Below are positions 3,925 through 21,985 of a stretch of 37,169 bases of DNA, piece by piece. The notes under the pieces are model-generated. The model had not been told where the DNA came from and made no database searches. It saw only the letters and a list, made by a program, of their open reading frames with translations. Every line of letters begins with the position of its first letter. Position 1 is the first letter of the stretch. A program made the position numbers and the translations under genes. The DNA is from Rhodanobacteraceae bacterium (GTDB taxonomy: Bacteria; Pseudomonadota; Gammaproteobacteria; Xanthomonadales; Rhodanobacteraceae): the NCBI GenBank assembly GCA_025928585.1, contig JAICJG010000016.1, forward strand, positions 1 through 37,169, written 5' to 3'.

Positions 3925-3927
3925 TTT

Positions 3928-5799
3928 CTAGGCGCCGCGCAGCACCGTCAGGAACCGTGCGCCATAGCGTTCCAGCTTGCGCGCGCCGACGCCGCTGATG
4001 GCGGCCAGGGCCTCGCGGTCCCTGGGCCGTTCGCGCAGCATCGCGTACAGCGTCGCGTCGTGGAAGATCACGTACGCCGGCACGCCCTGTTCCTTCGCCA
4101 GTTTCGCGCGCGTGTCGCGCAGGGCATTCCACAGCGGTTCCTCGTGCGGGGCGATGTCGAGGCTGCGGTGATTGCCCGAGGCGTCGGCGCGACGGCTGGC
4201 GCGGCGCTGCGCGCGGTCCGGTTCCCGGCGCAGGTGGACGGTTTCGTCGCCGCGCAGGACCGGGTGCGCGGCCGGTGTCAGGCGCAAGGTCCCGTAGCCT
4301 TCGAGGTCGGGGCTGAGCAGGCCGCGGGCGACCAGTTGCCGGAACACGCCGCGCCACTGGCGCGCGTCGAGTCCGGCGCCGATGCCGTGCACGGAAAGGC
4401 GGTCGTGGCCTTGCGCCTGGATGCGCTCGTTGTCCTTGCCCAGCAACACGTCGATGAGATAGCCGACGCCGAATCGCTGGCCGGTGCGGTAGACGCAGGA
4501 CAGCGCCTTCCGTGCGGCCTCGGTCGCGTCCCAGGTGGGCGGCGGGTCGAGGCAGTTGTCGCAGTTGCCGCACGGTTGTTCGAGGGTCTCGCCGAAGTAC
4601 GCCAGCAGCTGCTGGCGACGGCAGTGGGTGCTCTCGGCAAACGCCAGCAGCGCGTCGAGCTTGCCACGCTCCAGCCGCTTGCGCGCTTCGTCGGCGTCGG
4701 ATTGCTGGATGAATTGGGCGAGCGTGACCAGGTCGCTCAACCCGTAGGTCATCCACGCGTCGGCGGGCAGGCCATCACGGCCGGCGCGCCCGGTTTCCTG
4801 GTAATAGCCTTCGAGGCTTTTCGGCAGGTCGAGGTGCGCGACGAAGCGCACGTCGGGTTTGTCGATGCCCATGCCGAAGGCGATGGTCGCGCACATCACG
4901 ATGCCGTCTTCGCGCAGGAAGCGCTGCTGGTTGGCGGCGCGCGTGGCCGCGTCGAGGCCGGCGTGGTAGGGCAGCGCCTCGATGCCCTGCTCGGCGAGCC
5001 ACGCCGCGGTGTCCTCCGCCTTGCGCCGCGACAGGCAATACACGATCCCCGATTCGCCGCGGTGGCCGGCGAGGAACGCCTTCAATTGCTGGCGCGGCTG
5101 GTCCCGCTGCGCGACGCGGTAGCGGATGTTGGGCCGGTCGAAGCTGGAGATGAATTGCCGGGCTTGGCCGAGCGCCAGGTGCTCGACGATCTCGCGCCGG
5201 GTCGGGGCGTCGGCGGTCGCGGTGAGGGCGATCCGCGGCACGTTCGGAAAGCGCTCGTGCAACACCGTGAGTTCGCGGTACTCGGGACGAAAATCGTGGC
5301 CCCATTGCGACACGCAATGGGCTTCGTCGATCGCGAACAGCGACACCCTGGCGCGTTCGAGCAGGTCCAGGAAGCGGCCGGTGAGCAGCCGCTCGGGCGC
5401 CACGTACAGGAGCTTCAATCCACCGCCGAGGAAGCGCCGCTCGACGCCGGCCTGCGCCGGGGCGTCGAGGCTGGAATTGAGGAACGCCGCCGCCACCCCG
5501 AGCTGGCGCAACGCTTCCACCTGGTCCTGCATCAGCGCGATCAGCGGCGAGACCACGATGGCCGTGCCGTCCCGCAGCAACGCGGGAATCTGGTAGCACA
5601 ACGACTTGCCGCCGCCGGTCGGCATCAACACCAGCGCGTCGCCGCCCGCCGCGAGCTGTTCGATGATGGCCTGCTGGCGATCGCGGAAGGCGCCGTACCC
5701 GAATACGTCGCGCAGTACCGCAAGACTGGGGTCAGAGTGCATTTTCGCGGCAAAACCGGGGTCAGAGTGCACTTTCGAATCCGGGCTTGCGATGAGCAT
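3928..5799 (-). CDS. recQ: ATP-dependent DNA helicase RecQ
   Basis: 623 residues from the preferred ATG (5797-5799). A 3'-5' DNA helicase for recombination and replication-fork repair. Visible motifs in order: [11 protein letters not shown] (motif 0), [17 protein letters not shown] (Walker A), [20 protein letters not shown] (DEAH box), ALTATA (motif III), [10 protein letters not shown] (motif VI), the zinc-binding cysteines [10 protein letters not shown], an RQC region, and a C-terminal HRDC domain ([17 protein letters not shown]). The start is unusual: a GGAGGAG Shine-Dalgarno lies just before ATG 5799, but residues up to about 20 ([19 protein letters not shown]) are two tandem translations of a dispersed 20-bp repeat. 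An alternative ATG at 5742, inside the repeat, would give about 604 residues, close to the E. coli length. Confidence 0.95.
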
Positions 5800-5831
5800 C
5801 GACTCCTCCATGAAAGTGCACTCTGACCCCG
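5728..5831. repeat. Family A repeat cluster: two direct units and one inverted unit
   Basis: Units: GGGGTCAGAGTGCATTTTCG at 5728-5747, GGGGTCAGAGTGCACTTTCG at 5758-5777, and the inverse gaaagtgcactctgacccc at 5812-5830. The last two form a near-perfect inverted doublet with a spacer of about 34 bp. The spacer contains the recQ Shine-Dalgarno and ATG. The block begins three bases after the glycosyltransferase stop codon and extends into the recQ coding sequence. The architecture resembles REP/REPIN elements mobilised by RAYT-type tyrosine transposases, but no such transposase is in this window. Confidence 0.85.
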
Positions 5832-5833
5832 TT

Positions 5834-6550
5834 TCACAGTTCCTCGACGCCGGTCACCTTGGCGCGGCGCATCAGCCACGCGACGCCGCGCAGGTCGGCG
5901 AGGCCCACCCACAGCCGGTCCAGCATCCCGTACTTGGACACGCCGCGGGTGCGCGGCCGGTGGCCGACGGGAATGCTGACGCTCTCGAAACCGGCGCGCT
6001 TCACCAGCGCCGGCAGGTAGCGGTGCATGTGGTCGAAGTAGGGCAGGGCGAGGAAGGTTTCGCGCTCGAACAACTTCAGGCCGCAGCCGGTATCGGGCGT
6101 CGCATCGCGCAGCATCCGCGAGCGCACGCCATTGGCGATCTTCGAGGAGATGCGCTTGTTGAAGCTGTCGCGGCGGGTAGTACGCCAGCCGGCGAAGAGT
6201 TTCACTTTCGGATCGGCGGCTTTGCGCGCTTCGACCAGCTTCGGAATGTCGGCGGGATCGTTCTGGCCGTCGCCGTCGAGGGTGGCGATCCAAGTGCCGC
6301 GCGCCGCACGGACGCCGTTCCGGATCGCGGTGCTCTGGCCGCTGCGGCTGAGGTGCCGCACGATGCGCAGCTCTGGGTGCCGCGCGCGCTCGGCCTTCAG
6401 GACTTCGAGCGAATCGTCGGAGCTCGCATCGTCCACGTACACGATTTCGTAGTCGACGCGTCCGCGCAACGCGGTGGCGATCTCGGCCAGCAGTGGCGGG
6501 ATGTTGTCGCGCTCGTTGTAGACGGGCACGACCACGGACAATTCGGGCAT
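5834..6550 (-). CDS. Family 2 glycosyltransferase (polyprenyl-phosphate sugar transferase-like)
   Basis: 238 residues. GT-A fold motifs: [16 protein letters not shown] at the N-terminus, [11 protein letters not shown] (nucleotide binding), the [14 protein letters not shown] metal-binding region, and [34 protein letters not shown] typical of dolichol-phosphate-mannose-synthase-like enzymes. It probably moves a hexose from a nucleotide sugar to polyprenyl phosphate on the cytoplasmic face. No C-terminal membrane helices are present, so this is the short soluble or peripheral type. It lies between parB and recQ, 158 bp after parB. The acceptor and sugar cannot be read from sequence. Confidence 0.85.
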
Positions 6551-6671
6551 GCGGGGCGCCTTGCCGCGGGAAAGCCGCGATTATCGCCGATGCGGCGGAT
6601 GCGTGCCTGTGGCAGCGACGCCCAACGACAGTTGCCGCTCTTTGCAAAGCCCGACGCCCCGGCGCGGAAAC

Positions 6672-6712
6672 GTTGGGCGTCCGCCGATGAAGCCGGCGTC
6701 AGCCCCACCTAC
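6672..6712. repeat. Family B hairpin repeat overlapping the parB stop
   Basis: gttgggcgtccgccg / cggcgtcagccccac forms an imperfect long hairpin around ATGAAG. Related copies lie at 29275-29309 and 30930-30967, all sharing a central cgatgaagcc. The right arm contains the parB TAG codon (6709-6711). Its position at the 3' end of a gene suits mRNA 3'-end protection or termination. Confidence 0.6.
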
Positions 6713-7572
6713 CTCAACTTTTCGAGGATGCCTTCCAGCGCGTCGTGGTCGTGGTAGTGGATCACGAGTTTTCCGCGCTTGCCGCGGCCCTGCGCGATCT
6801 CGACGCGGGTGCCGAGGTTCCCGGAGAGTTCGCGCTCCAGCGACGCGATATCCGGATCGACGTCGCGGGATTTCCTCGCGCCCGCGCTCTTGGGCAATTG
6901 CGCGAGGCGCACCGCCTGCTCGAGTTCCCGCACCGACCATTCGTGGTCGGCAGCCTTTTCGGCCAGCGCGATCGCGCGCGGCGCAGGCAGGGTGAGCAGC
7001 GCGCGGGCGTGGCCCATTTCGATGCGGCCTGCGTCCAGCAGGTCGCGGATCGGCTCGGGCAGTTCGAGGAGCCGCAGCAGGTTGGCGACCGCCGCGCGCG
7101 AACGGCCGACCGCATCGGCGGCCTGCTGCTGGCTCAACTTGAATTCGTCGATCAGGCGCCGCAGCGCCTGGGCTTCTTCCAGCGCCGTCAGTTCCTGGCG
7201 CTGGATGTTCTCGATCAACGCCACCGCGAGCGCCGACTGCGCAGGGATGTCGCGCACCACCGCGGCAATCTCGGCGAGACCGGCTTTTTTCGCGGCGCGC
7301 CAGCGGCGCTCGCCGGCGATCAGCTCGTACTGGCCCCGCCCGGCGTCGCGCACCACGATCGGCTGGATCAGTCCCTGGGCCCGGATCGACGCCGCCAATT
7401 CTTCCAATGCGGCATCGTCGAAATGGTGGCGCGGCTGGTACTTGCCGGGGCGGATCGAGGTGATCGAAAGGTTCTCGAGTGTCTCGCCGGTGGCCTGGGG
7501 TTCGTCGTCCGTGTTGCCCAGCAGCACGTCGAGGTCGCGGGATCCGAGGCCCCTGCGTTTGGCGGCACTCAT
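6709..7572 (-). CDS. parB: Chromosome-partitioning protein ParB
   Basis: 287 residues from the ATG that overlaps the parA stop. ParB is a CTP-dependent DNA clamp that loads at parS near the origin. Visible: a short basic N-terminus (KRRGLGSRDLDVLLG), the ParB box with LSITSIRPGKYQPRHHFDDAALEELAASIRAQGLIQPIVVR, the CTP-binding GERRWRAAKKAGL, ENIQRQELTALEEAQALRRL, a helix-turn-helix (LSQQQAADAVGRSRAAVANLLRLLELP) and a C-terminal dimerisation segment (GKLVIHYHDHDALEGILEKL). It forms an operon with parA. Its TAG stop codon lies inside a family B hairpin repeat. Confidence 0.97.
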   Translation of the reverse strand: MSAAKRRGLGSRDLDVLLGNTDDEPQATGETLENLSITSIRPGKYQPRHHFDDAALEELAASIRAQGLIQPIVVRDAGRGQYELIAGERRWRAAKKAGLAEIAAVVRDIPAQSALAVALIENIQRQELTALEEAQALRRLIDEFKLSQQQAADAVGRSRAAVANLLRLLELPEPIRDLLDAGRIEMGHARALLTLPAPRAIALAEKAADHEWSVRELEQAVRLAQLPKSAGARKSRDVDPDIASLERELSGNLGTRVEIAQGRGKRGKLVIHYHDHDALEGILEKLR

Positions 7573-8396
7573 GCGGAAACCTTCATCATGGGTGTGGCGG
7601 GCGCGCCGGCTGGCGGGGGATTCGGCGCAACGCCGGCGCCGCCGCGCCGGATCATTTCGCCGGCGAGCCCGAGGTAGGCGATCGCGCCGCGCGATTCGCG
7701 ATCGTACAGGTTGATCGGTTTGCCGTGGCTCGGGGCTTCGGCGAGGCGCACGTTGCGCGGCACGACCGAATGCAGCACTTTGTCGCCGAAATGGCGGGCG
7801 AGTTCGGCCGACACGTCGTTGCCGAGTGCGGTGCGCACGTCGAACATCGTGCGCAGCAGGCCTTCGACTTCCAGCGACGGATTCAGCCGCTTGCGCACGG
7901 CCTTGATGGTGTCGAGCAGGTCGGTGAGGCCTTCCAGCGCCATCGATTCGCATTGCACCGGGATCAGCACGCTCTGCGCCGCGGTCAGGGCGTTCAGGGT
8001 CAAGAGGTGCAGCGACGGCGGACAATCGATCAGGATGATCGCGTAGCGGTCGGCGAGCTTCGCCAGTTGTTCCTTGAGCCGCACTTCGCGCGCGATCGCA
8101 TCCGCGAGTTTCAGCTCTGCCGCCGTGAGGTCGCGGTTGCCGGGCAGCAGATCGAAACCCGCTTCCGTGGTGACGATCGCCGACTCGATCGACGCCTCCT
8201 CCAGCAGCACTTCGCAGCCGTTGGGCTTCGCCGAGCGCTTGTCGACGCCGGACGAGGTCGTCGCGTTGCCCTGCGGATCGAGGTCCACCAGCAGGATGCG
8301 GCGCCGCGTTTCCGCCAAGGCAGCGGCGAGGTTGACGGCGGTGGTGGTCTTGCCTACGCCGCCCTTCTGGTTGGCGATGGCGATGATGCGCGTCAT
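7569..8396 (-). CDS. parA: Chromosome-partitioning ATPase ParA (Soj)
   Basis: 275 residues starting MTRIIAIANQKGGVGKTTTAVNLAAALA. The deviant Walker A (KGGVGKTT), LLVDLDPQGNAT and the Walker B-like ILIDCPPSLHLLTLNAL identify a ParA/MinD-family ATPase that drives ParB-parS segregation on the nucleoid. The C-terminus has a Pro/Ala-rich tail (GVAPNPPPAGAPATPMMKVSA). The MTR start is preferred over an upstream MRSMTR because it fits the family N-terminus. It overlaps parB by four bases and follows rsmG, as in many origin-proximal regions. Confidence 0.97.
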   Translation of the reverse strand: MTRIIAIANQKGGVGKTTTAVNLAAALAETRRRILLVDLDPQGNATTSSGVDKRSAKPNGCEVLLEEASIESAIVTTEAGFDLLPGNRDLTAAELKLADAIAREVRLKEQLAKLADRYAIILIDCPPSLHLLTLNALTAAQSVLIPVQCESMALEGLTDLLDTIKAVRKRLNPSLEVEGLLRTMFDVRTALGNDVSAELARHFGDKVLHSVVPRNVRLAEAPSHGKPINLYDRESRGAIAYLGLAGEMIRRGGAGVAPNPPPAGAPATPMMKVSA

Positions 8397-8571
8397 GGAT
8401 CGCAACGGGACCGGGAGCTTGAGCCGACTATCCTAACAGTTGTGCGATGGTCCATGACCGCGGCCCGATCTCATCCAGGGCGAGCCGGCTGGCGCCAGGA
8501 GCCCGCAACCCGAAAGGCCGTCCCCGACCGGACAACCTCGGAAAGGTCGCCCCGAAGGCCGCACGCGGCGA

Positions 8572-9207
8572 TTATCCGCGGTTCGCTCGCGCGAGTTCCA
8601 CCAGGTTGCGCTCGCCGCCCACTCCCGGCACCGCGAGCGGGTGCACGGCGAGCACGCGGAACCCGTCCGGCACGGCTGCGATCTCTGCGGGGTCGATCCT
8701 TCCCTTCATCGCCAGCCAGCGGCCGTCGGCGGCCAGGAGGTGGCCGCCCCACGCCAGCATGTCGGCGAGGCTTGCGAACGCGCGCGCCGTGACCGAATCG
8801 AACGGGCCCGCGGCATCCTGTATCCGGGCTTCCCTGATGGTGACATTCGGCAAGGGCAGTGCGCGCGCCGCTTCGCGCAGGAAGCGGGCCTTCTTGCCGT
8901 TCGACTCGATCAGGGTGACCGCCAAGTCCGGCCGCGCAATCGCGAGCGGGATGCCCGGGAGGCCGGCGCCGCTGCCGAGATCGGCGAGGGTTTCGCCGTG
9001 GAGGAACGCAAGGGCCGCCAACGAATCCAGGAGGTGCCGGGGCACCATTTCCAGGGGATCGCGCACGGCGGTCAGGTTGTAGGCGCGGTTCCACTTCGCC
9101 AGCAGCTCGAGATACGCAAGCAGCTTTGCCTGCGCTTCGCCGGGCAGTTCCAGCCGCATCGCTGCCATCCCGTCGATCAGTTTTTGTTCGAGGGTACGTC
9201 CTTCCAT
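8572..9207 (-). CDS. rsmG: 16S rRNA (guanine-527-N7) methyltransferase RsmG
   Basis: 211 residues from MEGRTLEQKLIDGM. It methylates N7 of G527 in 16S rRNA using SAM. The RsmG signature is clear: LLAKWNRAYNLTAVRDPLEMVPRHLLDSLAAL, the SAM-binding LADLGSGAGLPGIPLAIARPDLAVTLIESNGKKARFLREAA, and SVTARAFASLADMLAWGGHLL. An upstream in-frame extension (MLVTCVTGARM...) is not family-like, so the later ATG was chosen. It is followed after 175 bp by parA and parB, the usual rsmG-parA-parB order. This gap is non-coding, with no clear parS palindrome in it. Confidence 0.96.
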   Translation of the reverse strand: MEGRTLEQKLIDGMAAMRLELPGEAQAKLLAYLELLAKWNRAYNLTAVRDPLEMVPRHLLDSLAALAFLHGETLADLGSGAGLPGIPLAIARPDLAVTLIESNGKKARFLREAARALPLPNVTIREARIQDAAGPFDSVTARAFASLADMLAWGGHLLAADGRWLAMKGRIDPAEIAAVPDGFRVLAVHPLAVPGVGGERNLVELARANRG

Positions 9208-9337
9208 TCGAGGCGGCTGTCGTGAAAAGTCAGGGTCAGGGATGGCCATTCTGGCGCCGGTCACGCACGTCACCAGCACGCCGCCGTGGAATTCAACCAG
9301 GCCGCGAGCACGGACGATCGCACAAATGCGCCCCCTG

Positions 9338-9366
9338 AAAAACAGGAGCCCGCAACAGGCGGGCTC
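9338..9366 (-). terminator. Rho-independent terminator for the SPFH gene
   Basis: A perfect 8-bp stem (GAGCCCGC at 9346-9353, GCGGGCTC at 9359-9366) with loop AACAG. On the minus strand it is followed by CCTGTTTTTCAG. It lies 25 bp past the stop of the gene at 9391-9879. Confidence 0.8.
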
Positions 9367-9390
9367 ACCGTTTCTCCCTGGCCGGTTCGG

Positions 9391-9879
9391 CTACGCGGCG
9401 AGGTCCAGCTCGACCCGCGTCACCAGCACCCCGCGCTCGCGGAGGCTGCCATTCAAGGTCTGCTTGATGCGCTGGTTGCGTGAGCGCAAATCCTGGTCCG
9501 GGCCCCCGGAGTGGCTCACCGCCTCGCGCAGGCGACCGCGGATCAGGTCGTCGGCACGGTCGATCACGGAGTCGGCGCGCTCGGGGTCGAGCACCTGCCA
9601 CCAGACCCGGCCGCGCAAGGTCGGGGTCGAGGCGGAATCGGGCTCGAGCCGCTCGTCGACAGCCAGCGTGTAACCCGTGATGCTGATCTTGTGCGCGATG
9701 CGCTCCACCAGCGGCACCACCAGGTGGGTTCCCGCGGTCAAGGTGCCGGCGGGTTTGCCAAGCCGGCGCAGGGTATAGACCTGGCCTTCGGGAATGCGCT
9801 TGATGCTGAGCAGGCCGACCAGCGCGACCAGCATCAGGAATACGAGGATGGTGAGGGCAGAGAACATGAGGTATTTCAA
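9391..9879 (-). CDS. Short SPFH/band 7-like membrane protein
   Basis: 162 residues. One N-terminal membrane helix (about 7-26) is followed by a compact SPFH-like domain: IPEGQVYTLRRLGKPAGTLTAGTHLVVPLVERIAHKISITGYTL, then a WQVLDPERADSVIDRADDLIRGRLREAV segment ending in VLVTRVELDL. Full SPFH proteins continue into a long coiled coil; that part is absent, so this is a minimal version. The longest frame starts at TTG (9879), with an ATG four codons later (9867); neither has an ideal Shine-Dalgarno. Its role is unknown; families of this fold scaffold membrane domains or regulate proteases. Confidence 0.7.
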   Translation of the reverse strand: MKYLMFSALTILVFLMLVALVGLLSIKRIPEGQVYTLRRLGKPAGTLTAGTHLVVPLVERIAHKISITGYTLAVDERLEPDSASTPTLRGRVWWQVLDPERADSVIDRADDLIRGRLREAVSHSGGPDQDLRSRNQRIKQTLNGSLRERGVLVTRVELDLAA

Positions 9880-11282
<1,403 letters not shown>

Positions 11283-11347
11283 GTGCACCCGCTTGCCGGG
11301 ACGAGGTACCGTCGAGCCCCGGCCGCGCGCCCGGGCAAGGGAACTTC

Positions 11348-12295
11348 ATGAAGCGAGGGATCCTGTTGCCGTGCCTGCTGTTCGTGTGCGCAGGACTGCA
11401 GGCGAAGAACGTGGTCTGGCAGCCATCTGCCGGACACACGCAGATGCCGATCTGGCCGGGGACGCCGCCCGACACCCAGCCCGTGCCGGGGCCCGAATAC
11501 GCACTGACGGGAACAAGTGGCAAGCCGCAGTTTGCCGGCCGGCCCGTGACGGGCATACACGATGTGTCGCGCCCCACGATGACGGTCTATTTTCCCAAGG
11601 GCAAGAACACCGGGGCGGCGGTCGTGGTGTTTCCCGGCGGCGGATTCGAGGTTCTCGCGATCGACCTCGAAGGCACCGAGGCCTGCGACTGGCTGGTGTC
11701 CGAGGGCATCACGTGTGTCCTGCTGAAGTACCGCGTCCCGAGCGTACCGTACGACTGGCACTGCAAATGCCGTCCCGATGATTTCGCGCTTTCGGTGCCG
11801 GCACTGGAGGACGCCCAGAGGGCGCTGAGGCTGGTGCGTTTCCATGCGGGGAAATGGCACATCGATCCGCACAAGATCGGGGTGCTCGGATTTTCCGCAG
11901 GCGGATATCTCGTGGCCGAGGCGAGCACGGATTTCGAGCGGCGCCTGTATGCGCCAGTCGATGCGGCTGACAGGGAAAGTGCCCGTCCCGATTTCGCGAT
12001 GGCCATCTACCCGGGGCACCTCGCGACCGACAATGACAAGTTGAATCCGAATGTTCCGGTGTCCCGCGAAACGCCGCCCACCTTCCTGGTGCAGGCGGAA
12101 GACGATTACACCGATGGAGTAAACCAGTCGCTGGTCTATTACACGGCGCTGGCGAAGGCGCGCGTGCCGGCGGAGCTGCATCTGTACGCCCACGGCGGAC
12201 ACGCGTTCGGCGTGCGGCGCACGCACTTGCCGATCACCCGTTGGCCACGACTGGCCGAGGCGTGGCTGCGGACGATCGGAGTCATCGCCCATTGA
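11348..12295 (+). CDS. Secreted alpha/beta-hydrolase esterase
   Basis: 315 residues. A signal peptide (MKRGILLPCLLFVCAGLQA) implies export. The fold shows an oxyanion-hole VVFPGGGFEVLAIDLEGTEACDWLVSEGITCVLLKYRVP, the nucleophile elbow GFSAGGYL, an acid segment (VQAEDDYTD) and the catalytic histidine in HGGHAFG. This layout matches the BD-FAE/acetylxylan-esterase-like family in which carbohydrate-linked acyl esters are cleaved. It starts 65 bp after hemB, but a functional link is unlikely. The 4-residue spacing and DWHCKCRPDDF insertion suggest a cysteine-bearing loop near the active site. The substrate is not known. Confidence 0.8.
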   Translation: MKRGILLPCLLFVCAGLQAKNVVWQPSAGHTQMPIWPGTPPDTQPVPGPEYALTGTSGKPQFAGRPVTGIHDVSRPTMTVYFPKGKNTGAAVVVFPGGGFEVLAIDLEGTEACDWLVSEGITCVLLKYRVPSVPYDWHCKCRPDDFALSVPALEDAQRALRLVRFHAGKWHIDPHKIGVLGFSAGGYLVAEASTDFERRLYAPVDAADRESARPDFAMAIYPGHLATDNDKLNPNVPVSRETPPTFLVQAEDDYTDGVNQSLVYYTALAKARVPAELHLYAHGGHAFGVRRTHLPITRWPRLAEAWLRTIGVIAH

Positions 12296-12356
12296 TGCCG
12301 GATTTCGTCAAAGCTTTCGCGCTGCATCGCGTGCAGCATTTCGCCGTGTCGGCGGA

Positions 12357-13112: not shown

Positions 13113-13223
13113 GCAGGTACTCCGCGGCGCGGCCAGCTCAGAATATGGTCCGGGGCGGGCGATCCTCAAGGGCGCTGCCGATAGCGTGACCGCCCTCATG
13201 TCCCGCAGCCGCCCGTGCGGTCC

Positions 13224-13229
13224 TACAAT
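13224..13229 (+). promoter_or_regulatory. Possible -10 element for the cis-prenyltransferase gene
   Basis: TACAAT followed by G sits 8 bp before the ATG at 13238. The same TACAATG string occurs before hemB. The -35 region is not recognisable, and the spacing implies a very short leader. Confidence 0.25.
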
Positions 13230-13237
13230 GCGCTTCC

Positions 13238-14125: not shown

Positions 14126-14169
14126 GCGATCGCGGACCTCGACTCACCGGTGCTTCGCTCATAGGCGCG

Positions 14170-15024
14170 CTACGCCTGCAGGAAGTCCAGCAGCATGTCT
14201 GCGACCTTGCGCGGCTCGCGGATGTGCAGGTGGTGCGGGCCATGGATGCGTTCGACCCGGATGCCGGCAACGCAGGCGGCGCGCGCGTCCATCAGCGCGG
14301 TGGGGAGGTAAGGCGTCGATGGCTCCGCCAGCAGCAGCAGGGTGGGCGCTTCGATGCCGGCGAGCAACCGCCGCACCTGCATTTCCTCCGTGCGCAGGGG
14401 CGTTGCGAGGCGAAGCCTGGGATCGCTGCGCCACGAAAACCCGCCGTCGACATCGCGCAGGTTGCGCGCAACCATCGGGCGCGCCTCTTCCGCGTCCAGG
14501 CCACCCGCGGCCACGCGTGCCGCGACGGCGGCATCGATGGATGCGAATACGCGCGGTAACCTGCGCCCGGCGCCGCGTTGCGCGTACGCGCCGCGCCAGC
14601 GCGCGAGCGTTTGCGGGCCGTCGTCGGCGAGCGGACCCAGGCCTTCGATCAGAAGTAGTTTTTCGATGCGTGCAGGGGCTGCGGCCGCCGTGAGCGAGGC
14701 GATGCCCGCCCCCAACGAATGGCCGAGCAGGTCGAAGCGATCGAGTTGCAGCGCGCCGGCGAAGTCGAGCACATGATCGACCTGATCAGCGTTGTTGTAG
14801 CGGTGGACACCCTCGGGCAGGTGCGCGGAGTGCCCATGTCCCGGCAGGTCCAGGGCGACGACGCGCCGATTTGCGGCCAGCAGTGGCGCCAGCCGCGCAA
14901 AGCTCGCGGCGTTGTCGAGCCAACCATGCAGCGCCAGCAGCGGCGGCGCGGCCGGATCGCCCCATTGCAGCGCGGCGAGTTCGCCGAAAGGCGTTGCCAC
15001 GCGGAGATCCACGGTCCCGGTCAC
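14170..15024 (-). CDS. Alpha/beta hydrolase next to the pigment genes
   Basis: 284 residues from GTG 15024. Motifs: LLALHGWLDNAASFARLAPLL (oxyanion HGW), VALDLPGHGHS, the nucleophile elbow LLGHSLGAG, and a C-terminal histidine in HGPHHLHIREP. This is the serine-hydrolase-like (SERHL/MEST) branch of the fold. The GTG start is chosen because it begins 8 bases past the stop of the upstream flavoprotein gene; a longer frame reading into that gene is not plausible. The pair is transcribed divergently from the polyene operon. A thioesterase or ester-cleaving role in pigment synthesis is a guess. Confidence 0.75.
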   Translation of the reverse strand: MTGTVDLRVATPFGELAALQWGDPAAPPLLALHGWLDNAASFARLAPLLAANRRVVALDLPGHGHSAHLPEGVHRYNNADQVDHVLDFAGALQLDRFDLLGHSLGAGIASLTAAAAPARIEKLLLIEGLGPLADDGPQTLARWRGAYAQRGAGRRLPRVFASIDAAVAARVAAGGLDAEEARPMVARNLRDVDGGFSWRSDPRLRLATPLRTEEMQVRRLLAGIEAPTLLLLAEPSTPYLPTALMDARAACVAGIRVERIHGPHHLHIREPRKVADMLLDFLQA

Positions 15025-15031
15025 GCGGCCA

Positions 15032-16351
15032 TCATTCCGCGGCGTCGGTGGCGATCCGCATGCGGTTCTGGCGGCGGCGGTCGGCGAGGTCGGCGACCCA
15101 ACGCCGCAGGTTGAGCAGCGATGCGATCGCGTAAATCGCCTTGAAGATGCGCAGCTTCGAGAGCACCAGGCGGTTGTCGAACACGTCGCCGGCAAGCATC
15201 GAAATCACGCCCTGTTCCACCTGCATCACGTTGCGGGGATCGGCGAACAGCGCCTTCATCACCGGCGAATTGAAGCGGTAGATGAACCACGCGAAGCGGC
15301 GGTAACCATGGCGCAGGTGCTTGGCATAGCGCTTCTGCAGCGCCATTTCGCGCGCAGGCTCGCGCAAGGCACCGTCGACCACCTCGCACGCCTGCCGCGC
15401 GGAATACATCGCAAGGTACACGCCCGAGGAAAACACCGGATCGAGGAACGCCCAGGCGTCGCCGATCAGGATCCAGCGTGGGCCCGCCATCCGCCGGCAC
15501 GCGTAGGAATAGTTGCCGGTGAAGCGCACGGGGGAGATGCATTCGGCCCCCTCCATGCGGCGTTCGGCGCCAGGCACGAGTGCAAGCGTCTTCGCCATGA
15601 AGGCCGCGTTGTCGGAGCCCCGTCGGGTCTTCAGGTAGGAGGGCTTGCACACGCAGCCGACGCTGGTGTCGCCCCCGCGCAGCGGGATGAACCATGCCCA
15701 GCCGTGCGCGAAACGGTTGACGCTGATGATGTTGCCGTCCGGATCGTCGGGGTTGTGGGCGACGTTCCGGTAATGCGCGAACATGGCCGCGCTCTGGTGC
15801 TTGCCGTTGCGCTCCACCAGCTTCAACTGCTTGCCGAGGAAGGTGTCGCGGCCGGATGCATCGACGAGGTAGCGTGCGCGCAGCGCAGCCTTCGTGCCTG
15901 CGGCTTCGATATGCGCGACCACGCCGTCGGCGTCGAACGCGACGCGCTCGACCTTGGTTGCCTCGCGTGCGTCCACGCCGTGTTCGCGGGCATTCTCGAA
16001 CAGCATCCGGTCCATCTCCTCGCGCTTGACCTGGAACGCGTAGGGCGGCGTTTCGCCAAGCGCGCGATCGAAGCGGAAGGTGTAGTAGCTGCCGTCGTCG
16101 CGGGGAAAATCGGCGCCGAGCTTCAGGTGGCCCAGCGCGCGCAGTTTTTCCAGGACGCCGATTTCCTCGAAGATCGCCAGGTTGGCGGGAAGCAGCGATT
16201 CGCCGATGTGGAAGCGCGGGTGGCGGGCCTTCTCCAGCATCGTGACGCGCCAGCCGCGCTGTGCCAGCAGGGTGGACATGGTCGAGCCGCCGGGGCCGCC
16301 ACCCACCACCAGTACGTCGCAATCGAATGTCCGCGGGCTGGCGCCATCCAT
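15032..16351 (-). CDS. FAD-dependent halogenase-like monooxygenase 1
   Basis: 439 residues; AGGAGG lies 6 bases before the ATG. The FAD site is VLVVGGGPGGSTMSTLLAQRG, followed by HIGESLLPANLAIFEEIG and LKLGADF, where Lys77 matches the catalytic lysine position of flavin-dependent halogenases. The WxWxIP halogenase signature is present as WAWFIP (218-223), and GDAWAFLDPVFSSGV binds FAD near the C-terminal third. Together these suggest a phenolic or aryl halogenase that uses reduced flavin from a separate reductase. Related oxidoreductases (geranylgeranyl-reductase-like) share part of the fold, so activity is unproven. In a xanthomonadin-like locus, bromination of the aryl ring is the natural hypothesis. 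Confidence 0.8.
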   Translation of the reverse strand: MDGASPRTFDCDVLVVGGGPGGSTMSTLLAQRGWRVTMLEKARHPRFHIGESLLPANLAIFEEIGVLEKLRALGHLKLGADFPRDDGSYYTFRFDRALGETPPYAFQVKREEMDRMLFENAREHGVDAREATKVERVAFDADGVVAHIEAAGTKAALRARYLVDASGRDTFLGKQLKLVERNGKHQSAAMFAHYRNVAHNPDDPDGNIISVNRFAHGWAWFIPLRGGDTSVGCVCKPSYLKTRRGSDNAAFMAKTLALVPGAERRMEGAECISPVRFTGNYSYACRRMAGPRWILIGDAWAFLDPVFSSGVYLAMYSARQACEVVDGALREPAREMALQKRYAKHLRHGYRRFAWFIYRFNSPVMKALFADPRNVMQVEQGVISMLAGDVFDNRLVLSKLRIFKAIYAIASLLNLRRWVADLADRRRQNRMRIATDAAE

Positions 16352-16440
16352 CCGGATCCTCCTGTCACCGTTCAGCGGGAGTCGGGTCGCCCACCTATCA
16401 TATACATTTGTACGCCGCGCTCCGCCCAAACCGCGCTTCC
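16352..16440. promoter_or_regulatory. Divergent promoter region of the pigment locus
   Basis: 89 bp between the flavoprotein (minus) and membrane-protein (plus) starts. An AT-rich island at 16395-16411 (tatcatatacatttgta) in very GC-rich DNA offers a -10-like TATGAT on the minus strand (16402-16397) and TATCAT or TATACA on the plus strand. No strong -35 was recognised, so an activator may be needed. Confidence 0.45.
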
Positions 16441-17172
16441 ATGTCCTCGACCCCCGCCACGCAAGCACGCCCGGTCGCCGCCTCCCGAGTCCCGTGGATG
16501 TCGCTGGTCCTCCTGGCCTGCGCGCTGCTGGCGCTGGCGGGCGGACTGCTGCACCACGGTTACCTGAGCCTGGCTTCGGCGCTGTTGCTGCTGCTCGCGT
16601 GGCTGCCGGCGGTGTGGCGCCGCCACAGCACGGCCGCCACGCTGGCATGGCTCGGGCTCGCCGCGCTGTTGCTGCTGCCGGCACTGTTCGGCCACGCGGG
16701 ACTGGCGCTGATGGCGCTGCCGGTGGTATTCCTCGGTGGGGCCTCGTGGTTGTTCGCCCGTACCTTGCGGTCCGGCCGCGAGCCCCTGGTGGCGCGCTTC
16801 GTCCGGATGATCGAGGGCGACGTCCGGCTCGGCCTGCCGGGGGTGCGCGGGTACGCCCGAGGCGCCACGGTGTACTGGGCCACGCTGCTCGCCGCGCTGG
16901 CGCTGGTCTCGCTGCTGATCGCGCTGTGCGCGCAGCCGGGCGGCTGGCTGGCTGCGCTCGGCTGGCCGGCGCCGGTCGCGCTGCGCGGCTCGCTGCTCGC
17001 GTGGTACCCAGAGGCGGGTTGCTGGGCGCTGCTGCTGGCGGGTTTCGCCGGCGAATACCTGTTCCGGCGCTGGTGGCTGCGGGCGATCCCGCACCCGGGT
17101 GTCCGCCGCTTCGTGACGCAGATCGTGCGGCGCTGGCCCACGCTGTTGCGTGGCGAGGACGGGTCCGAATGA
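16441..17172 (+). CDS. COG4648-type integral membrane protein of aryl polyene clusters
   Basis: 243 residues, mostly hydrophobic, with about six predicted membrane segments (for example VPWMSLVLLACALLALAGGLL, LAWLGLAALLLLPALF, GATVYWATLLAALALVSLLIAL). The loop RTLRSGREPLVARFVRMIEGDVRLGLPGVRGYARGATVYW and the C-terminal EYLFRRWWLRAIPHPGVRRFV are typical of the predicted membrane protein carried by APE and xanthomonadin clusters. Its role is unknown; it may hold the elongation or lipid-transfer enzymes at the inner membrane. It is the first gene of the plus operon and overlaps the next gene by four bases. Confidence 0.75.
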   Translation: MSSTPATQARPVAASRVPWMSLVLLACALLALAGGLLHHGYLSLASALLLLLAWLPAVWRRHSTAATLAWLGLAALLLLPALFGHAGLALMALPVVFLGGASWLFARTLRSGREPLVARFVRMIEGDVRLGLPGVRGYARGATVYWATLLAALALVSLLIALCAQPGGWLAALGWPAPVALRGSLLAWYPEAGCWALLLAGFAGEYLFRRWWLRAIPHPGVRRFVTQIVRRWPTLLRGEDGSE

Positions 17173-17480
17173 ATGGCACGTTCCAGGAGGCGCTTCGGAT
17201 CGATGCGGCGCATCCGGCGCTGGCTGGTCATTTTCCCGGGCGGCCGGTAGTGCCGGGCGTGGTGCTGCTCGAACGGGTGGCGGCTGCCTGCAAGGCATGG
17301 CGGGGCGAATGCATCGGCGGGCTGGATGCCAAGTTCCTGCAGCCGCTGCTGCCCGGCCAGGAGGCCGTGATCGAATTGTGCGAAGAGGCTTCGGGGATTC
17401 GTTTCAGCGTGACGCGCGCGGATGGCGTGACGCTGGCGCGGGGGAAGCTGGCGCCGGCAGCGCGGGTTTCGCCGGCTTGA
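17169..17480 (+). CDS. FabZ-like 3-hydroxyacyl-ACP dehydratase (ApeI-like)
   Basis: 103 residues. The hot-dog motif AHPALAGHFPGRPVVPGVVLLERVA is the FabZ/FabA signature with the catalytic histidine in GHFPG, followed by DAKFLQPLLPGQEAVIELCEE. It would dehydrate the 3-hydroxyacyl-ACP intermediate to a trans-enoyl thioester in each round of polyene elongation. It is short for FabZ (about 140-150), but this length fits ApeI-type proteins. The ATG overlaps the stop of the membrane-protein gene (ATGA), and the next gene starts 49 bp later. Confidence 0.82.
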   Translation: MNGTFQEALRIDAAHPALAGHFPGRPVVPGVVLLERVAAACKAWRGECIGGLDAKFLQPLLPGQEAVIELCEEASGIRFSVTRADGVTLARGKLAPAARVSPA

Positions 17481-17529
17481 ATCATAACCGGCGGGCCCGC
17501 GACGCACGGCCCGGCAACGAGGGGGAAGC

Positions 17530-18546
17530 ATGAGCGAGGCGGAAGCGGCGATGGCCGGCGAGGACAACGAAACTTCCAGTGCGGGGCGCGCAGACGCGCA
17601 CTGGCTGGACCGGCCGGAAGCCGGCGGCTGGTTCGCGATCTGGTTGATCCGGTTCGTCGGCCTGCATTTCGGACGCGGCTTCGCGCGCCTGTTCCTGTAT
17701 CCGATCACGCTGTACTTCTATTTCCGGCGCGGGCCCGAGCGGCGCGCGGCGCGCGATTACTTCCGGCGTCTCGACGGCCGGCGCGTCAGCGGATGGCGGG
17801 TGATGCGCCTGATCCATGCATTCGCCTCGACCATCCTCGACCGGGTGTTCCTTCTGGCGCGCGGAATCGACGGTTTCCGGGTCACCACGCGCGGCGTCGA
17901 GGAACTGCACCGCCACCTCGACCGCGGACACGGCGTGCTGCTGCTCGGCGCGCACGTAGGCAGCTTCGAGGTGCTGCGGGTCCTGGCCACGCGCAGGCCG
18001 GATTGCAAGCTGAAGCTGGTGATGGACAAGAGCAAGACCCCGGCGCTCACCCAGTTGCTGGAAGCGCTGGCGCCGGAGTTGTCGGACAGCATCATCGACA
18101 CCGCGCGGGGCGGCATGGACATCGTGCTGGCGCTCTCGGAAGCGGTCCGCGAAGGCGCGATGGTCACGCTGCTCGGCGACCGCGGCCGGCCCCACGAGCT
18201 GATGCGCGAAGCGCCGTTTCTCGGCGCGGACGCGCCGTTCCCCGCCGCGCCTTGGCTGATCGCTTCGTTGCTGAAGGTGCCGGTGGTGCTTTGCCTCGGC
18301 CTGTACCGCGGCGGCGACCGCTACGACCTGGTGTTCGAAACGCTGAGCGAACGACCGGAGTTGCCGCGCACCGATCGCATGCGCGTGCTCGATGCCCATA
18401 TCCGCCATTACGCTGCACGCCTCGAGCACCACCTGCGCGCCGCGCCTTACAACTGGTTCAATTTCTATGACTTCTGGCAACCACAATCGGCAACCGATGC
18501 GCAACCGGCGGTGGCGGGAGACCTGCGGCATGCGCGGGTTTCGTGA
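17530..18546 (+). CDS. LpxL/HtrB-like lysophospholipid acyltransferase
   Basis: 338 residues. An N-terminal hydrophobic segment (FAIWLIRFVGLHFGRGFARLFLYPITLYFYF) is followed by the acyltransferase core GVLLLGAHVGSFEVLRVLATR, with a HX4E catalytic dyad (His142, Glu147), and GDRGRPHELMREAPFLGADAPFPAAPWLIASLLKVPVVLC. In APE clusters a homologous domain, often fused to a family 2 glycosyltransferase, attaches the polyene chain to a lipid or sugar carrier. Here the two are separate: the glycosyltransferase is at 24831. It ends 17 bases into the next gene. Confidence 0.85.
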   Translation: MSEAEAAMAGEDNETSSAGRADAHWLDRPEAGGWFAIWLIRFVGLHFGRGFARLFLYPITLYFYFRRGPERRAARDYFRRLDGRRVSGWRVMRLIHAFASTILDRVFLLARGIDGFRVTTRGVEELHRHLDRGHGVLLLGAHVGSFEVLRVLATRRPDCKLKLVMDKSKTPALTQLLEALAPELSDSIIDTARGGMDIVLALSEAVREGAMVTLLGDRGRPHELMREAPFLGADAPFPAAPWLIASLLKVPVVLCLGLYRGGDRYDLVFETLSERPELPRTDRMRVLDAHIRHYAARLEHHLRAAPYNWFNFYDFWQPQSATDAQPAVAGDLRHARVS

Positions 18547-19177
18547 CGCGCTGCCGCTTGCCGCATGCCTTGCGCTGATCGCGGGGGCGGTATCGGCGAA
18601 GGCGCCCGGCCTCGCCGAATCGCTGCTGGCCGGGATCGCGAAAACCCCGCCGGTGTCGACGCCATTCGTGCAGGTGAGCTATCGCGGCGTACTGGATCGT
18701 CCGCTGGTGGTGTCGGGAACCCTGCGCTGGCTGGGCGGCGACCGCCTCGTGCGTGAGATCACCAAGCCGTTTCGCGAGACCGCGAGAATCGGCGGCGGCG
18801 AACTTTCCGTGCAGCGCGGCGGTGGCGAAGTCCACCGGATGCCGCTGGCGCGGGCGCCGCAGACGGGCGCGATGCTGGCCGGGTTTCGCGCGCTGCTGGG
18901 TGGCGACGTGTCGGCGCTCGGGAATGATTTCACGCTCGCCGCCGAAGGCGGCAAGGCGCATTGGGTGGTGAAGCTCACGCCGCGCACGGCGCCGCTCGAC
19001 CGGCAGCTCGATTCGATCGTGATCGACGGCCGCGGTAACGAACCACGCTGCCTGACGGTGACGGACGACAACGGCGACATCAGCATCACGCTGGTGGGGC
19101 GGATGGCCCAGCAGGGCCTGCGCAGCCCGGCCCCGCTGGAGTCGGCGCTCGCCGCGCGGTGCAGAAACGAACGATGA
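18530..19177 (+). CDS. LolA-like outer-membrane lipid/lipoprotein carrier
   Basis: 215 residues from ATG 18530, preceded by GGGAG. A signal peptide (MRGFRDALPLAACLALIAGAVSA) directs it to the periplasm. The body carries the LolA-like pattern: FVQVSYRGVLDRPLVVSGTLRWLGGDRLVREITKPFRETARI and the C-terminal LDSIVIDGRGNEPRCLTVTDDNGDISITLVG. In APE clusters, ApeL-type LolA homologues pair with an MMPL exporter to carry the aryl polyene lipid to the outer membrane. It overlaps the acyltransferase gene by 17 bases and the exporter gene by four bases. Confidence 0.78.
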   Translation: MRGFRDALPLAACLALIAGAVSAKAPGLAESLLAGIAKTPPVSTPFVQVSYRGVLDRPLVVSGTLRWLGGDRLVREITKPFRETARIGGGELSVQRGGGEVHRMPLARAPQTGAMLAGFRALLGGDVSALGNDFTLAAEGGKAHWVVKLTPRTAPLDRQLDSIVIDGRGNEPRCLTVTDDNGDISITLVGRMAQQGLRSPAPLESALAARCRNER

Positions 19178-21513
19178 GGGCCGGCGCGCGGGTCGTCCTC
19201 TATTTCATTTGGCTGGCACTGATCGTCGGGATCGGCTTCGGGGTGGCGCGGCACCTCGAAATCACGTCCGACCTGCGTGATTTCGTGCCGCCGGGGCGCA
19301 CCGCCGACCAGAAACTGCTGCTGGACGAGATCGGCAACGGGCCAGGCTCGCGCCTGTTGCTGCTGGCGGTTTCCGGCGCGCCCGCGGCGCGGCTCGCGGA
19401 ACTCTCGCGTGGCCTCGAACAGGCGCTCGCACGCGACCCTCGTTTCCAACGCGTCGCCAATGGCAGCGCCGATCTCGCGGCGGCGGCATCCGACCTGCTG
19501 CCGTACCGGTACCTGTTGTCGCCGACGCTGGATTCGCACCGACTGGACGCCGCCTACCTGCACCAGCAGTTGCAGCAGCGGGTCGAGGATTTGAGTTCGC
19601 CCGCGGCATCGATGCTGGAACCCTGGCTGCGACGCGACCCGACGCTCGAAACGCTGAAGCTCGCGCAGGGCTGGGCGCCGGCGCGCCAGCCGAAACGGGT
19701 CGACGGCGTGTGGTTCTCCGATCGTGGTGAAGCGCTGCTGGTCACAGAAACCAAAGCCGCGGGTTTTGACCCGGGCGCGCAGGCCGCGGCGATTGCTTCG
19801 CTGCAAGGACATTTCGCTGCCCTGCCCGGTGCCGCCGACGCGAAGCTGACCATCAGCGGGCCGGGCTGGTTCGGCGTCCAGGCCAGCCGCCACACCCGCG
19901 CCGAGGCTGACCTCTTCGGTGTGATCACGACGCTCGGTTTCGTGATCATGCTGCTCCTGGCGTACCGCAGCGCGGTGCCGCTGCTGGTCACCGCGCTGCC
20001 GCTGCTGTCGGGCGCGGTGGTCGGTTTCGCGCTGCTGGCGCTGATCTTCGGGCACGCGCACGGCATCACCGTCGCCTTCGGTTTCACGCTGCTGGGCGTT
20101 GCGCAGGAATATCCCTTGCGTGTCTTCAGCCACCGTCGGATCGGCGTATCGACGTTGGCGTGCGTGCGCGAACTGTGGCCGCTCCTGGCGACCGCGATCG
20201 TGTCCGTCGCGATCGCCTACCTCGCATTTTTCGCATCCGGGGTCGCGGGGCTGCAGCAACTGGCGGTATTCACGATCGGAGGACTGGTGACAGCTGGTGC
20301 GTGTACGCGCTGGCTGTTGCCGCGGATCGTGCCGCCCGCGCGACGCGACATGGCGGCGACGCCGGGACTTGCCCGCGCCTGGCAATTCCTCGCGCACCTG
20401 CCGCGCCCGCGCTGGCTGCCGTGGCTGGTCGCCGCGGCGGGCATCGCGGTGATCGCATGGGCGCCGGGCCGTTTCTGGCAGAACGATCTGTCCGCCCTGA
20501 CCCCGGTCCCGAGGGCGGAACTGCAGCGCGACGCGCGTCTCCGCGCTGCGCTCGGTGCCCCCGACGTCCGCTATCTGCTGGTGCTGCGCGCGCCCAGCGC
20601 CGAGGGCGTGCTGGCGCTTTCCGAGCGCGTCGCGCCCGCGCTCGACGGGCTGGTGGGCCAGCACGCCCTGGAGGGCTTCGAGCTGCCGTCGCGTTATCTG
20701 CCGAGTATCGCCACCCAGCGCGCGCGGCAGGCGAAGCTGCCGGACCGCTCGAAGCTGGAAGCGGCGTTGCAGCAGGCGATGCAGGGGCTGCCGTTCCGCG
20801 CCGGCGTGTTCGCGCCGTTCGTCAACGAGGTTGAAACCGCGCGCGGCTTGCCACCGCTGACCCCTGCGCGTTTCGAGCGATCGCCATTGGGCGCCCGGCT
20901 GGAAGCGATGCTGGTGCAACAGGGCGAAGGCTGGGTCGGACTCGGAACGCTGACCGGCGTCGCCGATCCGGCCGCGTTCTCGGCGCTCGCCGGGGAGACG
21001 CACGGCCAGGCGCACCTCCTCGACCTCAAGGCCGCCACCGAATCACTGATCGTTGCCTATCGCCACCGCATCCTGGTCGCGCTCGGCATTGCCGCGGTGT
21101 TGTTGTGCGCCGCGGTGACGCTCGCGTTGCGGAGTCCCCGCCGCGCGCTGCACGTGCTCGGACCGATGACACTGGCGACCTTGCTGGTCCTCGCGGTGCT
21201 GCGCGCGGCCGGCATTCCGCTGTCGCTGTTCCACCTGGTTTCGCTGACGCTGGCGGCGGGGCTCGGCTTGCACTATGCGCTGTTCTTCGAGCGCCGCACC
21301 GACGACGCCCACGAGGACCTGCGCACCTTGCACGCGACGCTCGTGTGCGTCGCATCCGCGCTGCTGGTGTTCGGCGTGCTGGCGCTTTCCAGCGTGCCGG
21401 TGCTGCGCGCGATCGGGCTGACCGTGGCGCTGGGTGTCGCGTTTCATTTCATGCTGTCGGTGCTGATGGCGCCCGCCGGTCACCTGCGCCGGGGGGAGAG
21501 GGGGTCAGAGTGA
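19174..21513 (+). CDS. MMPL/RND-family lipid exporter of the polyene cluster
   Basis: 779 residues from the ATG overlapping the previous stop. It has the RND-like double arrangement: an N-terminal helix (VVLYFIWLALIVGIGFGVARHL), a periplasmic loop beginning SDLRDFVPPG, a block of membrane helices (FGVITTLGFVIMLLLAYRSAVPLLVTALPLLSGAVVGFALLALIFG), a second helix at WLPWLVAAAGIAVIAWAPGRFWQNDLSALTPVP, a second loop, and a C-terminal bundle (AAVLLCAAVTLALRSPRRALHVLGPMTLATLLVLAVLR). It resembles ApeM-like exporters. Its final residues (GERGSE and the stop codon) are encoded by a family A repeat unit, so the original C-terminus may have been replaced. Confidence 0.87.
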   Translation: MRAGARVVLYFIWLALIVGIGFGVARHLEITSDLRDFVPPGRTADQKLLLDEIGNGPGSRLLLLAVSGAPAARLAELSRGLEQALARDPRFQRVANGSADLAAAASDLLPYRYLLSPTLDSHRLDAAYLHQQLQQRVEDLSSPAASMLEPWLRRDPTLETLKLAQGWAPARQPKRVDGVWFSDRGEALLVTETKAAGFDPGAQAAAIASLQGHFAALPGAADAKLTISGPGWFGVQASRHTRAEADLFGVITTLGFVIMLLLAYRSAVPLLVTALPLLSGAVVGFALLALIFGHAHGITVAFGFTLLGVAQEYPLRVFSHRRIGVSTLACVRELWPLLATAIVSVAIAYLAFFASGVAGLQQLAVFTIGGLVTAGACTRWLLPRIVPPARRDMAATPGLARAWQFLAHLPRPRWLPWLVAAAGIAVIAWAPGRFWQNDLSALTPVPRAELQRDARLRAALGAPDVRYLLVLRAPSAEGVLALSERVAPALDGLVGQHALEGFELPSRYLPSIATQRARQAKLPDRSKLEAALQQAMQGLPFRAGVFAPFVNEVETARGLPPLTPARFERSPLGARLEAMLVQQGEGWVGLGTLTGVADPAAFSALAGETHGQAHLLDLKAATESLIVAYRHRILVALGIAAVLLCAAVTLALRSPRRALHVLGPMTLATLLVLAVLRAAGIPLSLFHLVSLTLAAGLGLHYALFFERRTDDAHEDLRTLHATLVCVASALLVFGVLALSSVPVLRAIGLTVALGVAFHFMLSVLMAPAGHLRRGERGSE

Positions 21514-21573
21514 CTTTTCGTTTGGCTACAGGTATCCGTGAGGCGCTGACGTGCGAAAAGGCACTCTGACCCC
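21501..21573. repeat. Family A inverted doublet between exporter and dehydratase genes
   Basis: Unit GGGGTCAGAGTGACTTTTCG at 21501-21520 and its near-perfect inverse cgaaaaggcactctgacccc at 21554-21573 are separated by 33 bp. This is the same doublet architecture and nearly the same spacer length as at 5758-5830. The left unit encodes the exporter C-terminus and its TGA; the right unit encodes residues 2-7 of the next protein, whose GTG start and GAGG Shine-Dalgarno lie in the spacer. Confidence 0.88.
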
Positions 21574-21985
21574 GCTTTCCGACTTGATCCCGCACGCGGG
21601 CGCGATGTGCCTGCTGGACGAGGTGCTCGAGTGGGATGCGGCCCGCCTGCACGCGCGCAGTGCATCGCACCAGCGCGCGGACAATCCGTTGCGTGGAGGA
21701 GGGATGCTGCACGCGGTGAACCTGTGTGAGTACGCCGCACAGGCCATGGCGGTACATGGCGCGCTGCGCGCCCGCGCCGAGGGCGGCCGGGCGCGGCCCG
21801 GCTATCTCGTTGCGCTGCGGGAAGTGCGGCTGCGGGTGGAACGGATCGACGAGCTCCCGGGCCGCCTGCACGTGCACGTCGAAAGCTTGCTCGCCACCGC
21901 CGAAAGCCTGCAATATGGTTTCCGGGTGGAGCATCGCGGAGCGCTGCTCGCCAGTGGGCGTGCGGCGGTGATGCTGCGCGATTGA
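21551..21985 (+). CDS. Hot-dog dehydratase of aryl polyene type (ApeP-like)
   Basis: 144 residues from GTG 21551 (GAGG 7 bases upstream). The protein is a hot-dog fold: LIPHAGAMCLLDEVLEWDAARLHARSASH, HAVNLCEYAAQAMAVHGALRARAEG, and a C-terminal beta-strand region. This is the pattern of the second APE dehydratase (annotated as 3-hydroxylacyl-ACP dehydratase), which works beside the FabZ-like one. Its first eight residues (MRKGTLTP) are the translation of a family A repeat, and recognisable family sequence begins with LSDLIPHAG. The native start may have been overwritten by the repeat. Confidence 0.8.
   Translation: MRKGTLTPLSDLIPHAGAMCLLDEVLEWDAARLHARSASHQRADNPLRGGGMLHAVNLCEYAAQAMAVHGALRARAEGGRARPGYLVALREVRLRVERIDELPGRLHVHVESLLATAESLQYGFRVEHRGALLASGRAAVMLRD

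Follow-up and report, generated by a model that had tools for sequence, protein, structure and literature searches.

Inverted doublets of TIRYT-type transposase ends as probable REPIN-like mobile elements in Rhodanobacteraceae and relatives

The sequence analysed here (the window) is a stretch of 37,169 nt, contig C30 of a Rhodanobacteraceae genome (G000; 2.73 Mb in 183 contigs). Its paired short repeats are very probably non-autonomous mobile elements of about 85 bp, in which two inverted copies of a Y1 (HUH) transposase end (TIR) enclose a loop of about 33 nt. The repeated unit, GGGGTCAGAGTGCACTTTCG, has five copies in the window at up to 3 mismatches and none in 100 dinucleotide shuffles. 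All five had been listed in the original prediction, and the two inverted pairs that it drew from them, D1 (5758-5830) and D2 (21501-21573), each span exactly 73 bp, with 33-nt spacers that differ in sequence. Both are recovered by a covariance model trained on 56 doublets that did not include D1 and D2 (Table 1).

D1 is bordered by AAAACC on its left and by a partial match (GTTT) on its right. It is accompanied by an extra outer tandem unit, and a comparable one (37 bp start to start) occurs at another doublet of the same genome (L050). A relic suspected near 3904 is real, because the model finds there a third, decayed doublet (D3), of which it is the right arm; D3 can be aligned with an intact doublet beside recQ in the congener G013 (L286), and the flank of L286 and the window share 85% identity along 143 bases. 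A second relic, suspected near 3806, was not confirmed: positions 3802-3842 resemble instead window positions 5840-5880 (83%), which may be the tails of paralogous genes. recQ has doublets at both ends (window 3845-5836), D1 at the 5' end and the decayed D3 at the 3' end; the recQ locus of the congener G003 (L070) also holds two model matches, about 1.95 kb apart. An Rfam scan of the window gave no match at gathering scores. Window positions 22021-22316, which give rise to most of the additional matches listed (as many as 28 in a single genome of the genus), belong to a separate gene or repeat family.

Table 1. Doublets, units and adjoining reading frames in the window
Feature	Position	Strand	Remarks
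Doublet D3, decayed	3845..3926	.	adjoins recQ stop codon; 28.1 bits, E = 4.8e-5
recQ frame	3928..5811	-	open through D1; TIGR01389, 815.7 bits
Extra outer tandem unit	5728..5747	+	30 bp upstream of D1 left arm, start to start
Doublet D1, arms and outer bases	5752..5836	.	covariance model 72.6 bits, E = 3.8e-16
D1 arms	5758-5777 and 5811-5830	+ and -	33-nt spacer; 5' end of recQ
Exporter-like ORF	19159..21513	+	stop codon TGA inside D2 left arm
Doublet D2	21495..21579	.	covariance model 56.1 bits
D2 arms	21501-21520 and 21554-21573	+ and -	33-nt spacer; junction of two co-directional ORFs
ORF	21551..21985	+	predicted GTG start (mechanical) at inner edge of D2 right arm

The unit recurs across the genome, as had been expected of a mobile repeat. 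Its exact 12-base core GGGGTCAGAGTG is found 34 times in G000 (18 forward, 16 reverse) against 0 for the reversed control, and 18-base matches at up to 3 mismatches number 50, against 2 for the control. Within 120 bp of one another, the 34 cores form 16 convergent, 0 divergent and 2 same-strand pairs. Fourteen of the convergent pairs (28 cores) span 71-75 bp; the remaining two involve an outer tandem unit and have spans of 103 and 111. We gathered 69 distinct doublets (G000, 23; G003, 29; G012, 15; G013, 2) from regions around unit matches, with up to 1 mismatch in G003, G012 and G013 and up to 3 in G000, requiring over the first 11 bases at most 1 mismatch in one arm and at most 3 in the other, and a span of 55-100 bp. 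The spacing is as non-random as predicted, with a median span of 73 bp and 61 of the 69 at 71-75 bp, arm conservation and length range in this set being partly conditioned because its members were chosen by unit match and span. A 108-bp pair (G003:C68:38798/38905) falls outside the set, as do further covariance-model matches. The 56 doublets of the model are a cleaner selection, limited to spans of 70-76 bp and to no more than 1 mismatch summed over the first 11 bases of the two arms.

In the 69 doublets, a single base has a frequency of at least 0.91 at each of arm positions 1-14 and 16-18. Position 15 is variable, yet changes in step between the two arms. Inner arms agree at 9.36 of 10 positions, compared with 8.01 after re-pairing, and none of 5000 shuffles attained the observed level. 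Outside the arms the stem continues as AAAACC/GGTTTT; AACC stands on the left of 47 doublets, GGTT on the right of 46, and both are present in 34. Along the 26-bp stem of the 56 model doublets, 94.2% of cells are paired (88.9% when shuffled), the covariation score is 0.161 (0.065), and 10 stem pairs are changed on both sides (6.5; 2 of 500 shuffles reach 10). The loop, by comparison, keeps its length but not its sequence across the 69 doublets of four species: whichever way its roughly 33 nt are read, the commonest base never exceeds 0.57 at any position. Folded as single-stranded DNA, D1 reaches -26.3 kcal/mol (z = -7.5 against shuffles) and D2 -23.8 kcal/mol (z = -5.05). Two single units folded alone gave 0 and -1.7 kcal/mol, with no hairpin within a unit. 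It is the two inverted units with their constrained spacer that form one long hairpin, which is the build of a REPIN.

The doublets might accordingly be classical REPINs, that is doublets of GTAG-tagged REPs with a RAYT of group 2 or 3 as the moving enzyme; an inverted doublet of 71-75 bp with a variable loop and symmetric arms is what the cited passages describe in P. fluorescens (PMC3116915). However, GT[AG]G stands at or adjoining an arm in 2 of the 69 doublets and is absent from the other 67, the single units barely fold, and the related transposase genes carry NHVH and YIELNP or YIDLNP, motifs of subclass 2.1, rather than the DHLH of subclass 2.2 (cited part of PMC6006769). With the tag absent from nearly all doublets and no hairpin in the two units folded, we reject a classical REP identity and hold this reading to be very improbable. 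The REPIN/RAYT interpretation of the original prediction thus stands for the build and the class of mechanism and fails for the family, the units being TIRYT-type TIRs without a GTAG tag: "REPIN" describes how the doublets are built, and probably how they move.

The identity of the arms comes from transposase genes elsewhere. Exact GGGGTCAGAGTGCACTTT lies on both sides of transposase frames, with spans of 815-821 bp, in a MAG (L161), Rhodanobacter sp. C06 (L165), Pseudoxanthomonas spadix (L177) and another genome of the family (L239). G003, of the same genus as the window, has an open Y1 frame between GGGGTCAGAGTCGACTTT repeats (L057; span 834 bp). G000 itself carries two genes that match Y1_Tnp (PF01797). 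They lie on contig C88 and none is on the contig of the window, in indirect agreement with the original prediction that the window lacks such a transposase. The first is broken and lies between GGGGTCAGAGTCGACTTTT and the inverse GGGGTCAGAGTCGAGTTTT; the second stands behind GGGGTCAGGTTCACTTTTCC and runs off the contig, only its upstream repeat being visible. Judged on sequence, the doublet arms are the TIRs of IS200-like (Y1/HUH) transposase genes of the subclass 2.1/TIRYT type. By eye, the L057 frame carries NHVH, WE and YIELNP, and the second G000 gene YIDLNP. Y1_Tnp (55.4 bits) is the sole Pfam domain at E ≤ 0.01 in a transposase piece of 216 residues, in which the C-terminal helix-turn-helix or DnaA_C-like domain of subclass 2.1 gave no match; NCBIfam NF047646 (REP-associated tyrosine transposase) scores 69.0 and 65.8 bits against a cut-off of 80, and a PDB sequence search with the piece returned weak matches only (2xm3, a transposase chain, E = 0.043; TnpArep 4er8, E = 0.48). 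A solitary left end is also present on C88 (L033, 7066-7115), with subterminal sequence that by eye is like that of the broken element upstream; the short ORF before it looks like a cold-shock protein.

Among the best 80 public relatives of the transposase, 43 have an inverted repeat with GGGG[AT][CG]A[CG], 15 another inverted repeat and 22 none by the method used. We placed TIR types on a transposase tree of 80 rows (the best 80 minus 3 with stops plus 3 genes of the genus), 24 of which have no TIR read on the upstream side. All labels together require 26 changes, compared with 47.7 when shuffled. The GGGGTCAGAGT type (18 rows) requires 5 changes against 16.4 (0 of 500 shuffles), GGGGACAG 3 against 12.2 and GGGGTCAGGT 4 against 7.8; no clustering is seen for "other GGGGTCAGA" (12 against 13.2) and "no TIR read" (19 against 20.9). 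The gene of G003 and the broken one of G000 fall among the GGGGTCAGAGT rows, and the second gene of G000 has as its sister a gene that shares its TIR type.

None of the 13 Y1 matches in the 16 genomes of the genus adjoins a unit of the GTGCA type when exact GGGGTCAG is sought in the loci retrieved. Three of these genes do have such a motif, with ends of GTCGAC type (two) or GGTTCA type (one); one of the three genes is broken and one is truncated by a contig end. The assemblies being fragmentary, the lack of a GTGCA-type gene in the genus is not proof of absence. The original prediction had proposed looking for a RAYT gene flanked by the unit; RAYT-like Y1 genes occur with sister units in G000 and relatives, and with none of the GTGCA type in the genus. 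The GTCGA type forms doublets in G000 (L053, L054), a genome that also holds the broken gene with that TIR type.

The unit at up to 1 mismatch is found in four of the 16 genomes of the genus (36, 60, 28 and 4 matches) and in none of the other 12. The doublet model matches six of the 16, with at least 71, 90, 50, 9, 6 and 6 strand-matches (the doublet is near-palindromic and usually matched on both strands; up to 150 places were scored per genome). Across the family, where up to 38 places were scored with stricter filters, it matches at least 46 of 117 genomes and at least 19 of 26 genera, with spans outside the genus of about 52-95 bp among the matches listed; spans of about 55, 65, 76, 80 and 86 bp recur by eye in other genera among these matches. 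The exact 19-mer occurs in 27 of 197 family genomes drawn (12 of 26 genera). In sister genera the unit is also seen as near-palindromes of about 41 bp without a spacer (L242, 212-252; L248, near 200).

Presence/absence variation between relatives, another expectation of the original prediction, is observed at single sites, some of them doublet-free in congeners. At the L040 site the whole doublet is present in G003 and G012 and absent in G001, G013, G014 and G006; G015 and G002 have other sequence there. The D1 site carries the doublet in G012 as well, and in G003 a rebuilt three-unit form. No doublet is found at this place in G013 and G015, G013 having one about 1.8 kb off, at the other end of recQ. 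At the D2 site, the model matches none of the 14 loci retrieved from relatives (L084-L097). The D1 loop is found again at G003:C77, with 31 of 33 bases, between flanks without a match at E = 0.01, and further pairs share a loop without a flank match (L156/L286, L045/L267, and L040 or L102 with L283); several more loop-sharing pairs are orthologous sites. Of 2346 loop pairs, 15 score at least 8, against 0.0 per set of mononucleotide shuffles. Empty sites in congeners and one loop at unrelated loci indicate that the doublets move.

A different account would make the doublets host-selected bidirectional terminators or RNA-stability hairpins of a single origin, their mobility being old or incidental. 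It draws on D1 and D2 hairpins far more stable than shuffles, on the outer arms AAAACC...GGTTTT, and on several doublets that by eye (uncounted) stand directly behind stop codons. The arms are also the best kept part of orthologous doublets (96.6% identity, versus 74.9% in flanks and 64.1% in loops) over 11 pairs. These pairs, chosen for loop similarity or a site known to be common, overlap in their genomes and are not independent; in one (L056/L266) the arms match at only 31 of 40 positions. Recent copying, gene conversion and selection acting on the hairpin would each account for such arm constancy. Against this account, 12 of the 16 genomes of the genus are without the unit and 10 without the doublet by the model among places scored, one loop stands at loci without flank likeness, the arms match transposon ends, and a doublet lies in frame inside nadE in three species. 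We consider it unlikely, and retain mobile elements as the preferred reading.

The frame of nadE (TIGR00552, 94.9 bits; cut-off 63.65) is open through its doublet in G000, G012 and G003, and so is that of recQ. A mechanical ORF call puts the predicted recQ start, an ATG, at 5811, on the inner edge of the D1 right arm. On the D2 side, the upstream ORF has weak HpnN/MMPL/HAE3 matches only, below their cut-offs, and the downstream ORF has no Pfam or NCBIfam match; relatives of the latter mostly have ATG-led sequence at the place of its start. The nadE linker (L034, G000:C6, 471-543; relatives L123, L125-L127) is an apparent insertion hotspot, where doublet-free G014 and G015 carry a palindromic insert GGGAATGGGGAAT...CGATTCCCGATTCCC and doublet-free G001 and G006 one of the GGGACCAGGGAC type.

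D1 and D2 are not clean insertions, since host sequence is replaced at both sites. The D1 site measures 113-115 nt with the doublet and 36-38 nt without it. At the D2 site, 8 of 12 relatives have 34-53 host nt in the doublet's place, a net gain of +48 to +51, and the remaining 4 have 173-212 nt of other sequence. A gain of about two arms could suggest that arms were inserted around pre-existing host DNA; the spacer would then be host sequence, which would explain a fixed length with unrelated loops, and the doublet-free recQ sites of G013 and G015 do share GGGCTTGCG with the D1 loop. Yet at 10 loci where this was tested, the doublet's own loop is no closer to the doublet-free host sequence than other loops are (11, 103, 91, 68, 37, 113, 79, 46, 57 and 14 of 136 control loops being equal or better), and loops travel with the arms to loci without flank likeness. 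A spacer of captured host DNA is not supported by these loci and is most improbable.

Ordinary MITEs of a DDE transposase would also have short inverted termini and no coding capacity. However, the borders of 34 doublets show no excess of direct repeats, as left by target-site duplication, over re-paired controls at any length from 2 to 9 bases, and the matching termini found, in a search of Y1 genes, belong to Y1 genes. We see hardly any chance for such an origin.

For the preferred reading, a mobile hairpin of Y1 TIRs, we propose the following mechanism. The two arms would pair into one long hairpin on single-stranded DNA, for instance at a replication fork. A transposase recognising GGGGTCAGAGT...TTT at the foot of the hairpin would cut, carry and reseal the whole hairpin elsewhere, and the resealing would leave no target duplication. 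The arms alone would be read by sequence; the loop would be free to drift because only its length is needed. The arms would be held at their consensus by new copies, by gene conversion or by selection for the hairpin. Once settled at a gene end, an element could form an RNA hairpin that works in both directions; inside genes it could be tolerated in frame. We infer the single-strand chemistry from the Y1/HUH family. Tentatively, subclass 2.1 may sustain REPIN-like hairpins made of its TIRs alone in several species, and the GTGCA type may move in trans through a sister enzyme tolerating changes of the inner four bases; this possibility, to which we give somewhat less than even weight, is raised by the persistence of the GTGCA type in four species in which no matching gene was found.

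The doublets extend REPIN-like behaviour to ends of the TIRYT/subclass 2.1 type. Dozens of doublets, related species that have or lack them, sites free of a doublet, and matched as well as mismatched transposase ends make up a natural test set. With it one can ask whether these single-strand transposases read the arm sequence, the pairing of the arms or the length of the loop, and by what means such elements last when no gene matches them. They further illustrate that such repeats can stand open in frame inside nadE and at the start of recQ. A literature search by title and abstract start, with figures and supplements outside its range, found no description of this doublet family among the papers listed, and a search with literal GGGGTCAGAGT gave nothing on it by title. 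We regard the doublets as a new and well-supported family of an already described kind, since TIRYT genes, dispersed TIR dimers and the logic of REPIN doublets have been published.

The closest known systems are four. Di Nocera et al. (2013; PMC3733652), in the part cited here, gave the name TIRYT to Y1 genes between inverted repeats with the motif GGGGWSAS; the TIRs of these TIRtrons are unrelated to GTAG repeats, are dispersed in some genomes, many as dimers or clusters, and are most numerous in S. maltophilia. GGGGTCAG fits GGGGWSAS, Y1 genes lie between such repeats at L057, L161, L165, L177 and L239, and the same TIR is dispersed as dimers. Because their arms are Y1-gene TIRs and not REPs, the doublets are best described as REPIN-like non-autonomous relatives of TIRtrons. 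The arms, compared with TIRtron TIRs through the text of that report, may equal one of the TIRs of its Figure 9. Beyond that report are the 73-bp geometry, the stem covariation, the empty sites, the loop-sharing copies and the tree clustering, in Rhodanobacteraceae and relatives. The REPINs of P. fluorescens SBW25, as given in the cited passages of Bertels and Rainey (2011; PMC3116915), are likewise inverted doublets, with ends 71 bp apart (GI type), symmetric changes, and a spacer less conserved than the ends, the length of which was judged critical; their ends are REP sequences, whereas the doublet unit has neither a GTAG tag nor a hairpin of its own. Quentin et al. (2018; PMC6006769), in the portion used here, assign 20 of 26 TIRYT examples to TnpA-Y1 subclass 2.1, equated with Bertels group 1, repeat the GGGG[AT][CG]A[CG] consensus and found no REP-like sequences with this subclass. 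The NHVH, W[EQ] and YIELNP motifs of L057 agree with their table, membership being assigned by motifs only; the difference is that TIRs of the 2.1 type here form an amplified doublet population. Finally, the intragenic REP/RPE elements covered in the reviewing section of PMC3733652 likewise stand open in frame in or at genes, as the doublets do at nadE and recQ, and differ from them in sequence and in transposase link.
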